Source: an uncultured Polaribacter sp.
GTDB taxonomy: Bacteria; Bacteroidota; Bacteroidia; Flavobacteriales; Flavobacteriaceae
DNA: 64,000 bases
Direction: 5' to 3'
Assembly: GCF_947496195.1 (NCBI RefSeq)
Contig: NZ_CANMBY010000002.1
Span: 1 to 64,000 of the forward strand
The notes below the pieces were generated by a model. That model did no database searches. It was not told where the DNA came from and worked only from the letters and a program-made list of their open reading frames with translations. Shown here one piece after another: positions 51,638 through 54,362 of this stretch. The position numbers and the translations under genes are program-made. Within the stretch, counting starts at the first letter, position 1. The number at the start of each line of letters is the position of its first letter.

Positions 51638-52354
51638 ATGAAACTCGATATTTTAGCTTTTGGTGCACATCCAGATGATGTAGAATTAGGTTGTGGAGCA
51701 ACAATTGCAAAAGAAATTTCTTTAGGTAAAAAAGTTGGTATAGTTGATTTGACTAGAGGAGAGTTAGGCACAAGAGGCTCTGCTGATTTAAGAGATGAAG
51801 AAGCCAAAAAGTCTGCTGAAATTTTAGGAGTATCTGTAAGAGAAAATTTGGGTTTTTCTGATGGTTTTTTTAAAAACGATAAAGAACATCAGTTGGCTAT
51901 TATAAAAATGATTCGAAAGTATAGGCCAGAAATTGTTTTATGCAATGCAGTTGATGATAGACATATAGATCATGGAAAAGGAAGCAAATTAGTGTCTGAT
52001 GCTTGTTTTTTAAGTGGTTTATTAAAAATTGAAACTAAAGTTGATGAAAAACTTCAAGAAAAATGGAGACCTAATAATGTGTATCATTATATTCAATGGA
52101 AAAATATAAATCCAGATTTTGTTGTTGATGTCACAGGATTTATTGAAAAGAAAGTAGATTCAATTTTAGCTTATAGTTCTCAATTCTTTGATCCTAAGAG
52201 TAATGAGCCAGAAACACCTATAACAAGTAAAAACTTTTTAGACAGTATAACATATAGAGCAAAAGATTTAGGAAGAATAATAGGAGTGGAGTATGCAGAA
52301 GGTTTTACTTCAGAACGATTTGTTGCTGTAAAAAATTTAGATAAATTATTTTAA
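51638..52354 (+). CDS. bshB1: bacillithiol biosynthesis deacetylase BshB1
   Basis: A 238-aa zinc-dependent LmbE-like N-deacetylase that removes the acetyl group from GlcNAc-malate, the second step in making the thiol bacillithiol. Zinc ligands are in FGAHPDDVELGCG (His11, Asp14) and RHIDHGKG; the DLTRGELGTRGS loop is the BshB signature. The bshA and bshC partners are not in this window. It lies just upstream of tRNA-His. Confidence 0.93.
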   Translation: MKLDILAFGAHPDDVELGCGATIAKEISLGKKVGIVDLTRGELGTRGSADLRDEEAKKSAEILGVSVRENLGFSDGFFKNDKEHQLAIIKMIRKYRPEIVLCNAVDDRHIDHGKGSKLVSDACFLSGLLKIETKVDEKLQEKWRPNNVYHYIQWKNINPDFVVDVTGFIEKKVDSILAYSSQFFDPKSNEPETPITSKNFLDSITYRAKDLGRIIGVEYAEGFTSERFVAVKNLDKLF

Positions 52355-52384
52355 TTAATTCTTTTAGTAGAATTAAAAATAAAT

Positions 52385-52392
52385 TATATTTG
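52385..52392 (+). promoter_or_regulatory. -7 box of tRNA-His
   Basis: TATATTTG, an exact -7 element, 16 bases before the first base of the mature tRNA. No clear TTG at -33. Confidence 0.5.
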
Positions 52393-52408
52393 TACCCGCA
52401 AATTAAAT

Positions 52409-52483
52409 GGTGGTTGTAGCTCAGTTGGTTAGAGCGTCGGTTTGTGGTACCGAAAGTCGTGGGTTCGAGCCCCATCTTCCACC
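52409..52483 (+). tRNA. tRNA-His (GTG)
   Basis: A complete cloverleaf: extra G at -1 (52409) facing C73, D stem GCTC/GAGC, anticodon stem TCGGT/ACCGA with anticodon GTG at 52444-52446, T stem GTGGG/CCCAT and TTCGAGC loop. The G-1:C73 pair is specific to tRNA-His. The acceptor stem is GTGGTTG against CTTCCAC, leaving two adjacent U-U mismatches at 5-68 and 6-67. CCA is not fully encoded. Confidence 0.95.
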
Positions 52484-52491
52484 CAAAATTT

Positions 52492-52525
52492 AAAAAAGCC
52501 TTTTCATTATGAAAAGGCTTTTTTT
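52492..52525 (+). terminator. tRNA-His terminator
   Basis: A perfect stem AAGCCTTTTC/GAAAAGGCTT with a five-base loop and a run of T, beginning 9 bases after the tRNA. Confidence 0.9.
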
Positions 52526-52530
52526 AGTTA

Positions 52531-52563
52531 AGGGATATTTTAGGGGTATTTTAGGGGCTTTTT
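52531..52563 (+). repeat. three tandem 11-base AGGG repeats
   Basis: AGGGATATTTT, AGGGGTATTTT and AGGGGCTTTTT follow each other without gaps, one helical turn each, 48 bases after the tRNA-His gene. Spacing and position resemble arm-type sites of tyrosine integrases. Confidence 0.7.
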
Positions 52564-52734
52564 AATAAGAAGTTGTCAAATATTGAAGAGCTTTACTTTT
52601 ATGACATCTGGTTAGGGATCCTCAAATCATTTAAGTTGTTATGCTTCTTCTAATAGAAATTAGGGGTAAGCTTTATTAACACTCTCCAATACTTGATAAA
52701 CTCTGAAAAAATTAATTTTCAATGAACTTCTTAG

Positions 52735-52790
52735 CTATGCTATTATGTTGTTTTATAGGGATTAAACAACATAATTTTAGGGGTGCATAG
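52735..52790 (+). other. hairpin with AGGG in loop and bulge
   Basis: Outer arms CTATGC/GCATAG (52735-52740, 52785-52790), inner perfect 12-bp arms ATTATGTTGTTT/AAACAACATAAT (52742-52753, 52764-52775). The 10-base loop TATAGGGATT and the 9-base bulge TTTAGGGGT both expose the AGGG motif. Confidence 0.6.
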
Positions 52791-52798
52791 TATGTTTT

Positions 52799-52840
52799 AA
52801 AAAAGGTAAATCTATTATAGGGATTAAGTTTTACCTTTTT
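52799..52840 (-). terminator. hairpin with the same TATAGGGATTAA loop, possible terminator
   Basis: Perfect arms AAAAAGGTAAA (52800-52810) and TTTACCTTTTT (52830-52840) with a 19-base loop. Only two G-C pairs, but on the minus strand it ends in a T run, so it could end a transcript from the promoter at 52904-52933. It could also act in the plus direction. Confidence 0.45.
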
Positions 52841-52903
52841 AAATAACTAATATTTTTAATGAACTTAGTTGGTTTTGACTATATGTAGTCTTTAACAACA
52901 CTT

Positions 52904-52933
52904 CAAATGTAGTAATTATTTACCACAAAACAA
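52904..52933 (-). promoter_or_regulatory. promoter/operator copy without an annotated gene
   Basis: Minus strand TTG (52933-52931), 19 bases, TACATTTG (52911-52904). The block on the plus strand (CAAATGTAGTAA, six variable bases, then ACCACAAA) repeats the XRE promoter at 53564-53592 with the same GTAGT-N8-ACCAC inverted element. It would drive a leftward RNA of about 100 bases to the hairpin at 52799-52840. Confidence 0.6.
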
Positions 52934-53005
52934 GTAATATATATAAAAAATTATCAAACTTTTATTGTATTTGTTATAATGTACTGATAAACAAAGCTTT
53001 ATAAA

Positions 53006-53033
53006 TACTACAATTTATGATTTATTACTACAA
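53006..53033 (+). repeat. two TACTACAA direct repeats
   Basis: TACTACAA at 53006-53013 and at 53026-53033, 20 bases apart. Their complement TTGTAGTA resembles the half-sites in the XRE promoter elements, so they may be extra binding sites. Confidence 0.45.
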
Positions 53034-53111
53034 ATAATAATGTATTGATGTTTAACTATAATTTATCATAAGTATTATAGATTTTTATAATAAAATATAT
53101 TGATATAAGTC

Positions 53112-53142
53112 ATAAAAAAGGCTACCTATAAAAGGTAGCCTT
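53112..53142 (-). terminator. terminator of the XRE gene
   Basis: A perfect 10-bp stem AAGGCTACCT/AGGTAGCCTT with a five-base loop, followed on the minus strand by a T run. Confidence 0.88.
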
Positions 53143-53177
53143 GATTCAGGGGTAATAAGGGGATGTATTGTAATATT

Positions 53178-53552
53178 TTAGTATTCAGAATCTTTTATAA
53201 ACTCTTCAATATTATTAAGTCTTTGAAGTATTTTCTTTGATAATCCTTTAAATTGATCTCTTACCAAGTCTTTTATATGTTCTTCTATAGGAGAGTGTAC
53301 TTCTTTTTGAACAGCAACATAAGAGTCTTTATATTTACCAACACCTGTAAATAACCATAAAGGATCTATTCCTTCAATATTATCTAATATTGCTAGTAAT
53401 ATAGTTTCGTTAGGCTTCTTTGTGTAATTTACAACAGCACTGACCAATTGTTGAGAAACACCAATAAGTTCTGCGAACTTTCTTTGGTTAAGTCCTGAGT
53501 CATTAAACACTTTTATGACTCTATCTGCTCTATCTTTATCTACTTTTTTCAT
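53178..53552 (-). CDS. XRE-family HTH regulator
   Basis: From the ATG at 53552, 124 aa. The Cro/CI helix-turn-helix is at about 10-65 (RVIKVFNDSGLNQRKFAELI, GVSQQLVSAVVNYTKKP), followed by DNIEGIDPLWLFTGVGKYKD, a segment usual in Bacteroidota phage-type repressors. Those normally continue into an S24 peptidase domain; here it is replaced by a short helical tail (KDLVRDQFKGLSKKILQRL). A TTG 12 codons upstream lies in the promoter and is unlikely. It has its own promoter and terminator, in the same direction as the LytTR operon. Confidence 0.85.
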   Translation of the reverse strand: MKKVDKDRADRVIKVFNDSGLNQRKFAELIGVSQQLVSAVVNYTKKPNETILLAILDNIEGIDPLWLFTGVGKYKDSYVAVQKEVHSPIEEHIKDLVRDQFKGLSKKILQRLNNIEEFIKDSEY

Positions 53553-53563
53553 TTTGGGGTCTT

Positions 53564-53592
53564 CAAATGTAGTAAAAAAAAACCACAAACAA
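53564..53592 (-). promoter_or_regulatory. promoter and putative operator of the XRE gene
   Basis: Minus strand TTG (53592-53590), 18 bases, TACATTTG (53571-53564), 11 bases ahead of the ATG. Between the boxes is the inverted element GTAGT-N8-ACCAC (plus strand 53569-53586), shared with the copy at 52904-52933, suggesting autoregulation. Confidence 0.68.
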
Positions 53593-53612
53593 TTATTTTT
53601 TTTAATTTTTTA

Positions 53613-54362
53613 TTAAATATCCTTGAGTATGCTTATTATTTCAGGCTTTTTTCTACTAGATACTGGTACAGTAGTATTGTCCTGTAAAACTAGATAACCC
53701 CCATCAGATTTAATAAACTCTTTAATATATTCTTTATTTATTAAATAACTTTGATGGACTCTAATAAAATTATTGTCTTTTAATAAATCTGAATAATACT
53801 TAAGCGTTTTAGAAACCATTATTTTGCTTTTATCTTTAAAATAGAAAGTTGTGTAGTTACTATCTGACTTGCATTTTATAATATTATTTATATCTACAAT
53901 TACTATTTTTTCTGAGGTATGTAAAGAAATTTTAGTAGGTATGTTATTTGGAGTTGTAACTAAATCATTTAAAATGTTTATTTGTTCTTCTCTTATAGCT
54001 AAACTATTCTTTGCCTTTTTAACAGATTCTTTTAAATCTTCTATAGAGTAGGGTTTAAGTATATAATCTATAGCAGCAAACTTAAAAGCTTTAATAGCAT
54101 ATTCATCACTTGCTGTAATAAATATTACTCTAGACTTTAAATTTGGTATCATTTCTAATATATCAAAAGCAGTACCATCTCCTAACATAATATCTAAGAA
54201 TAAGATATCTGGTTGTTTTTTTTGTAATTTCTTTACAGCTTCTATTATATGGCTAGCACTACCTATAATTTCTAACTCCGTTAATTCATTTTTTATATCT
54301 TGAATTAACATTTGTAATGCGTTTATATTATCTTCTACTACAAATGATGTTATTTTGTCCAT
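53613..54362 (-). CDS. LytTR-family response regulator
   Basis: A 249-aa regulator: receiver domain at 1-115 with phospho-acceptor Asp57 (DILFLDIMLGDG), conserved FITASDEYAIKAFKFAAIDYILKP, and a LytTR DNA-binding domain at about 145-245 (IVDINNIIKCKSDSNYTTFYF, FIRVHQSYLINKEYI). LytTR domains bind pairs of short direct repeats. It follows the kinase gene by 25 bases, so the two are an operon. Its likely target is the promoter of the lipoprotein gene at 56440-57528. Confidence 0.93.
   Translation of the reverse strand: MDKITSFVVEDNINALQMLIQDIKNELTELEIIGSASHIIEAVKKLQKKQPDILFLDIMLGDGTAFDILEMIPNLKSRVIFITASDEYAIKAFKFAAIDYILKPYSIEDLKESVKKAKNSLAIREEQINILNDLVTTPNNIPTKISLHTSEKIVIVDINNIIKCKSDSNYTTFYFKDKSKIMVSKTLKYYSDLLKDNNFIRVHQSYLINKEYIKEFIKSDGGYLVLQDNTTVPVSSRKKPEIISILKDI

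Follow-up and report, generated by a model that had tools for sequence, protein, structure and literature searches.

A candidate non-coding RNA gene, probably derived from an XRE gene duplicate, behind a second copy of the XRE promoter/operator block in Polaribacter

The window analysed here, a stretch of 64,000 nucleotides at the beginning of contig NZ_CANMBY010000002.1 of an uncultured Polaribacter sp. (GCF_947496195.1), carries an XRE gene between a tRNA-His gene and a LytTR response regulator gene, together with a second copy of the XRE promoter/operator block that precedes no intact XRE gene (Table 1). The XRE protein matches HTH_3 (PF01381; 27.4 bits, cut-off 23). We compared the locus across 166 congeneric genomes, denoted by G handles, in which G000 is the genome of the window and G015 is P. 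porphyrae. The tRNA-His gene is present in 38 of the 40 loci scanned, several of which come from the same genome; the two loci without it are short contig pieces of G137. In the XRE-less genomes G019 and G023, the PIG-L, tRNA-His, LytTR and kinase genes are adjacent, and the XRE module can thus be seen as placed between tRNA-His and LytTR; most other XRE-less Polaribacter compared have no LytTR gene within 1.5 kb, which indicates that the neighbourhood varies.

Table 1. Features of the XRE locus, in positions of the window
Feature	Position	Strand	Remarks
tRNA-His	52410..52484	+	Constant neighbour of the locus
Hairpin, 15 pairs, with A and T runs	52492..52525	-	Likely RNA end, perhaps also the tRNA-His end on +
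Predicted non-coding RNA, ~410 nt	52490..52900	-	XRE-copy remnant without the HTH-coding part; seven [C/T]CCCTA motifs
P1 helix, 3' arm	52574..52589	-	
P1 helix, 5' arm	52683..52698	-	Former last codons of the XRE ORF
Domain A	52733..52792	-	Outer stem CUAUG/CAUAG, ACCCCUAA, inner 12-bp hairpin with loop AAUCCCUAUA
Internal hairpin, then T run	52799..52841	-	Loop with AAUCCCUAUA; possible weak early stop
Orphan promoter/operator block TTTGTGGTAAATAATTACTACATTTG	52904..52929	-	-7 element TACATTTG at 52904-52911
XRE gene terminator	53118..53142	-	From consensus terminator scan
XRE gene, 124 aa, HTH_3	53178..53552	-	mRNA without domain A, P1 and CCCTA motifs
XRE promoter/operator block TTTGTGGTTTTTTTTTACTACATTTG	53564..53589	-	Pattern matches in own and genus genomes
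LytTR response regulator gene	53613..54362	-	Far side of the XRE module

Of the 166 congeneric genomes, 28 contain an XRE relative (E 1e-20 or better), five of them with two copies, and the XRE genes of G006 and G085 have no intact frame. In the wider family, the only one of 397 genomes drawn that gave an XRE match at E 1e-12 was the own genome, and scanning 84,980 species genomes with a peptide pattern, a method limited to close relatives, returned 10 loci with nine strong matches (eight Polaribacter and one Bacteroidia MAG). A phage origin of XRE was considered and rejected: no relative was found in phage records or viral contigs, and PHROGs repressor profiles match weakly. A divergent XRE group (loci L009, L010, L057, L058, L059 and L062) has, by eye, a longer C-terminus, and the 3' arm of its P1 helix lies, by eye, within the apparent end of a convergent reading frame.

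The preliminary description of this DNA had reported two near-identical promoter/operator blocks, and these are real: the pattern CAAATGTAGTAA-N6-ACCACAAA is present in both blocks, and the two exact copies are its only matches within three mismatches in the own genome, compared with none for the reversed control. Both blocks contain the inverted element GTAGT-N8-ACCAC. The minus-strand reading of a looser, general form of the block is TTTGTRGT-N7-TACTACATTTG. The flavobacterial promoter consensus has a -33 and a -7 part. The final eight bases of the block, TACATTTG, agree with TAnnTTTG, the -7 element reported for a flavobacterium (PMC9723704). Within three mismatches, the general block has three matches in the own genome, namely the two exact copies and one site with three mismatches, versus 12 for its control, and therefore only near-exact copies are meaningful. 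A search of related genomes, which the preliminary description had proposed, found the block conserved beside XRE: the 166 genomes contain 19 exact sites in 15 genomes, all of them XRE carriers, and 19 of 19 sit at the XRE locus. Allowing one or two mismatches also brings in 40 matches from 31 of the 138 genomes without XRE, and the control columns there are seemingly at least as full. The block within two mismatches adjoins XRE in 25 of the 28 XRE genomes, the exceptions being G021, G011 (whose version is one base shorter) and G006 (where the 5' part of the XRE gene is broken). Some copies contain a long palindrome, such as GTAGTAAAATTTTACTAC in G005, as expected for a dimeric HTH protein. 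To judge from these comparisons, the general block is the conserved promoter/operator of this XRE family with members in 28 of the 166 genomes. We consider it fairly probable that XRE acts on both promoters by binding their palindromic block, which would co-regulate protein and RNA.

Five genomes (G000, G015, G009, G105 and G109) have a block that does not precede an intact XRE gene, and we refer to the stretches behind these blocks as orphans. All five orphan blocks are exact, and the XRE blocks vary from exact to more than two mismatches. The 411-nt orphan stretch of the own genome has a predicted fold of -91.8 kcal/mol (z -9.19; 0 of 100 shuffles), and its z is -5.7 when the end hairpin is left out. 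The five orphans give z values of -5.7 (G000), -6.8, -4.8, -1.8 (G105, weak) and -7.3, compared with a background of mean -0.9, standard deviation 1.3 and minimum -3.4 in 25 random 350-nt pieces of the own genome. No frame longer than 20 aa was found in the G000 orphan, and a small protein encoded by the orphans was rejected as a candidate, as their longest frames (18 to 43 aa) are unlike one another by eye. A search with Rfam release 15 returned only tRNA above the gathering score in positions 52300-53700 and in the G077, G109 and G009 loci, and no report of the orphan RNA appeared in the literature searches made.

The body of the G000 orphan aligns with XRE mRNAs, with z 20.3 for that of G024, 10.6 for that of G126 and 3.4 for its own, against shuffles that kept base composition only. 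For the G015 orphan, the best z is 11.8 and that of its own XRE is 2.8; the orphans of G009 and G105 align best with a copies of XRE. The G109 orphan aligns weakly to all XRE mRNAs (best z 5.8, own 3.8), yet it has the P1 arms and the block. The first ~140 mRNA bases, which code for the helix-turn-helix, are unmatched in the orphans of G000, G009, G015 and G109, and the rest of the orphan corresponds to domain A, at the codons near Ser-Pro-Ile, and to the C-terminal codons plus the 3'UTR. Sequence comparison thus points to the orphan as a former XRE copy from which the HTH-coding part is gone, with the predicted hairpins, long-range helix and CCCCUA motifs remaining. In a tree of 23 XRE proteins, in which some forks are modestly supported, the a and b copies of G009, G105, G096 and G188 form two clades and G000 pairs with G015; in our reading, an old tandem duplication would have been followed by about three conversions to RNA (G000/G015, G009/G105 and G109).

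The RNA elements of the orphan have counterparts in the XRE mRNAs of relatives, where domain A corresponds to the coding region around Ser-Pro-Ile. In an alignment of 18 of the 23 XREs, which fold this way by eye, and four orphans, all members having been chosen for showing the element, domain A is paired in 89.2% of cells; its covariation score was reached by 0 of 500 shuffles, and its number of double-change pairs, five, by 14 of 500. The XREs without this fold are G000, G015, G009b, G105b and G165, of which four belong to orphan-bearing genomes; G165 has no known orphan. The Ser88 codon is TCC in 21 of the 23 XREs, the exceptions being G000 and G015; TCC makes up 26 of the 224 Ser codons of these genes, and 21 of those 26 are at Ser88. 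The Pro89 codon is CCT in 22 of the 23. Synonymous sites at the RNA elements thus appear to be constrained in most relatives. Among XRE copies outside the 23, that of G109 keeps ATCCCCTAT despite the presence of an orphan, that of G084 carries ACCCCCATA, and those of G004, G011 and G095 have no Ser-Pro-Ile motif.

The P1 helix pairs the last XRE codons with a site ~80-130 nt downstream. In 30 P1 units, selected for having both arms and including three broken genes, the 12 central positions (360 cells) contain 21 wobbles, two compensatory pairs and three non-pairs, and the four outer positions are often unpaired; the excess of wobbles far above A-C breaks fits an RNA rather than a DNA palindrome. 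The P1 arms of the G109 orphan, TTGAATATTGAAGA and TCTTCAATATTCAA, are perfectly complementary. The arm search found no 3' arm or no arm pair in the G000 XRE, the G015 XRE, G021, G105b and the G015 orphan. A search with RNA model R1, run with stricter filters for many genomes, gave matches at E 0.01 or better in 23 of the 166 genomes, all XRE carriers; the orphan matches of G000, G015, G009 and G105 arise by construction, and the only match of G137 lies off the locus and was judged false by reading.

When the 3' parts of the XRE mRNAs were delimited by one rule, 19 of 23 had fold z values of -2.8 to -10.5. The four that have lost the fold, namely G000 (+1.2), G015 (-2.3), G009b (-0.6) and G105b (+0.3), are all in orphan-bearing genomes and stem from about two lineages. 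The value for G015 is near that of the weakest kept fold (G188a, -2.8), includes part of the end hairpin and becomes -0.7 with another cut; this mRNA still matches R1 weakly (E 1.5e-4). The G106 mRNA gave -0.96 in one cut because the segment ended before the end of the 3' arm. Each orphan contains five to eight CCCTA motifs (0 of 300 shuffles each; shuffle means 0.6-1.0), and the XRE mRNAs contain zero or one in G000, G015, G009b and G105b and two to seven in the other 19. A conserved ORF and a conserved RNA element, predicted from the 19 of 23 folds and the synonymous constraint, would thus both lie in the XRE transcript, as for a dual-function RNA. P. porphyrae has the same split as the own genome, apart from P1, which cannot be recognised in its orphan, and G009 and G105 have kept one structured XRE beside the orphan. 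From these comparisons, the G000/G015 lineage seems clearly split, and G009/G105, in which the fold persists in the a copy, only partly so. The G109 XRE keeps ATCCCCTAT and P1 despite its orphan, and an XRE gene therefore need not lose the fold.

Taken together, these results lead us to regard the second block as the promoter/operator of a non-coding RNA gene that arose from a tandem XRE duplicate, a reading to which we give a probability of roughly three in four. The ancestral-type XRE mRNA, which most relatives would still have, is proposed to be bifunctional, providing an HTH protein and an RNA fold that reaches from the C-terminal codons across the 3'UTR and bears UCCCUA or CCCCUA motifs in its loops and linkers. 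In the own genome, the protein would have been kept by the XRE gene and the RNA by the orphan, with the same block before both; as both lie behind the same promoter/operator, their levels should rise and fall together, and if XRE represses the block, both would be under XRE feedback. The repetition of CCCCUA suggests a role in trans.

The preliminary description had offered a decayed XRE duplicate as an alternative to a small RNA, and both ideas are partly borne out. The RNA does appear to derive from such a duplicate. That the orphan is simply a functionless pseudogene, whose promoter has not yet eroded, seems quite unlikely: homology to the XRE mRNA without its HTH part, the two XRE copies in 5 of 28 genomes, the broken XREs of G006 and G085 and the unimpaired G109 XRE would all suit mere decay, but the five orphan blocks are exact, four of the five orphans have kept fold z values of -4.8 to -7.3, and the fold is lost from the XRE mRNAs of G000, G015, G009b and G105b. 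Moreover, the inner stems of the G000 and G015 orphans, compared by eye, comprise 12 pairs, of which three are changed on both sides, one is changed by wobble and none is broken. The covarying structure, the exact orphan blocks and the loss of the fold from several XREs with an orphan beside them lend good comparative support to a non-coding RNA gene behind the second block, but not to its proposed length. The end ~100 nt downstream, near 52800, is probably wrong, and the leftward transcript most likely ends near 52490. An RNA of ~100 nt would stop at the hairpin at 52799-52841, which has a stem of ~11 pairs followed by six Ts; this stem is A-T rich, however, the predicted folds of the three other orphans compared show no equivalent of the hairpin, and the layout common to orphans closes, at around 380-415 nt, with a hairpin and a T run, all of which makes the short form unlikely. 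The consensus terminator scan lists neither this hairpin nor that at 52492-52525, the latter probably because its T run is inside the stem. Within the longer RNA, the hairpin at 52799-52841 may be an internal hairpin or a weak early stop. A purely cis-acting 3' structure that would do no more than protect or terminate the XRE mRNA, with the orphans as by-products, also seems very improbable; P1 and the hairpins are indeed situated at the mRNA 3' end, but four intact XRE genes do without the fold and ORF-less RNAs retain it.

How an RNA gene of this kind might act is suggested by the occurrence of its motif elsewhere. In the own genome, ACCCCTAA occurs 66 times, mildly above the 46 occurrences of the reversed control; 63 classified sites lie outside the orphan RNA (12 coding sense, 36 coding antisense and 15 intergenic), and three of the intergenic sites are sense-oriented and no more than 20 nt upstream of a start codon, followed by genes that encode, by eye, a 158-aa protein, a repeat adhesin and a 353-aa protein. 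In relatives, secreted and lipoprotein genes repeatedly have the motif around their starts. With these sites as leads, we tentatively consider it possible that the orphan RNA acts in trans as a multi-site decoy for a factor recognising CCCCUAA beside the start codons of a small number of mRNAs, which would often code for exported proteins. An alternative, which we find somewhat doubtful, is a base-pairing sRNA that would present CCCC seeds in C-rich loops to G-rich mRNA sites. The seed of VcdR consists of four consecutive cytosines according to the description available (PMC8672173), and some of the motifs are in hairpin loops, both of which agree with base pairing; against it, the same-sense motif recurs at some gene starts, as a decoy would predict, and TAGGGG is not clearly in excess near starts (G000, 2 versus 0.73 expected; G074, 1 versus 0.62). 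A general location of the motifs in hairpin loops is not supported, as it exceeds chance for 5 of 32 motifs, with a mean loop probability of 0.22 versus 0.19 in shuffles. A broad start-codon regulon is likewise unsupported by the start-codon counts in 400 kb of G000 or G074, where CCCCTA was found 0 times versus 0.73 expected and once versus 0.62, respectively, without enrichment. A full Csr-like layer in Polaribacter, in which the factor recognises CCCCUAA beside the starts of exported or adhesin-like proteins and is titrated by XRE-controlled decoys that came from the XRE mRNA and were repeatedly freed by ORF loss, appears doubtful.

Several further occurrences of the motif were seen on inspection of individual loci. 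In the own genome, ACCCCTAA is immediately 5' of the ATG of the repeat adhesin gene (L308:1600-1660) and of the 158-aa protein gene (L270:1480-1530), both of which have, by eye, a signal-like N-terminus. Also in the own genome (C2; L135:390-1130) are two small genes of ~67 aa, apparently paralogous by eye; the first begins CTACCCCTATG, and the second has a CCCTA-rich 3'UTR closing in a hairpin with a T run. CCCCTA occurs twice within 30 bases in at least 130 of the 166 genomes, but the reversed control is as frequent in many, and for this reason only recurring leaders were taken as leads. In five loci (L143, L144, L145, L146 and L153), the CCCCTA leader and the signal peptide (MTPKSKSKW or MSPKPKSKW) are alike, but the proteins differ downstream, as if leader and signal peptide had been shuffled as one unit. 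A TPR lipoprotein gene, seen in G000, G060 and G074, has an upstream hairpin in 8 of the 166 genomes, seven of them XRE carriers, and the hairpin loop contains CCCC or CCCT on one strand in six of the eight; in L137:1500-1625 (own genome, C3 ~208300-208420), L139 and L150, it takes the form of CTGGCGTA, a loop with CCCTA, and TACGCCAG. In G077, which has no XRE match, two tandem near-identical units of ~110 nt (L152:920-1345) with promoter-like ACTATATTTG have a hairpin with CCCCTA, linkers with CCCC and a further hairpin at the end, and look like small decoy-type RNAs.

These observations point to a possible RNA-motif regulatory layer in Bacteroidota. CsrB/RsmZ-type decoy RNAs carry many copies of one short motif, GGA; the orphans resemble them in having a repeated motif, well above the shuffle means, but the orphan motif is CCCCUA instead of GGA. 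Among the nearest ideas for such a layer that we have met, in the descriptions available, are the RbpB/FopS system of Bacteroides (PMC11697453) and the proposed TAACTGA repeat network in Beggiatoaceae (PMC4679880). The Rfp RNAs of Flavobacterium psychrophilum, of which Rfp18 affects the mRNA levels of secreted proteases, are, like the orphans, structured flavobacterial sRNAs; compared by description only, they differ in that the account available mentions no XRE relation (PMC9723704). The 3'UTR-derived sRNAs, as outlined in the source at hand, similarly involve RNA elements at mRNA 3' ends, but the XRE element extends into the coding region and has a stand-alone gene as well (PMC9438474).

We believe that the locus offers a clear comparative case in which a two-function messenger splits into one gene for the protein and one for the RNA, both with the same promoter, and that such a split constitutes a route for the birth of regulatory RNAs, which is directly testable since some species have the two functions joined and others have them apart. 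The closest known logic to that of the XRE/orphan system would appear to be that of dual-function RNAs. VcdRP of Vibrio cholerae, as described in the part of the source available, is a dual-function RNA that also uses a run of cytosines; it has one seed and a 29-aa protein and no two-gene split, in contrast to the five to eight motifs per orphan (PMC8672173). The likeness to SgrS/SgrT, in which the ORF is present only in a subset of species according to the same partial account (PMC8672173), is the combination of protein and RNA functions in one transcript, which in our case is predicted from sequence. SgrS, however, is a base-pairing sRNA with a small ORF, whereas here a full HTH regulator gene appears to have been duplicated, and, unlike in SgrS/SgrT, the two functions would have settled in two tandem genes with the same promoter/operator.
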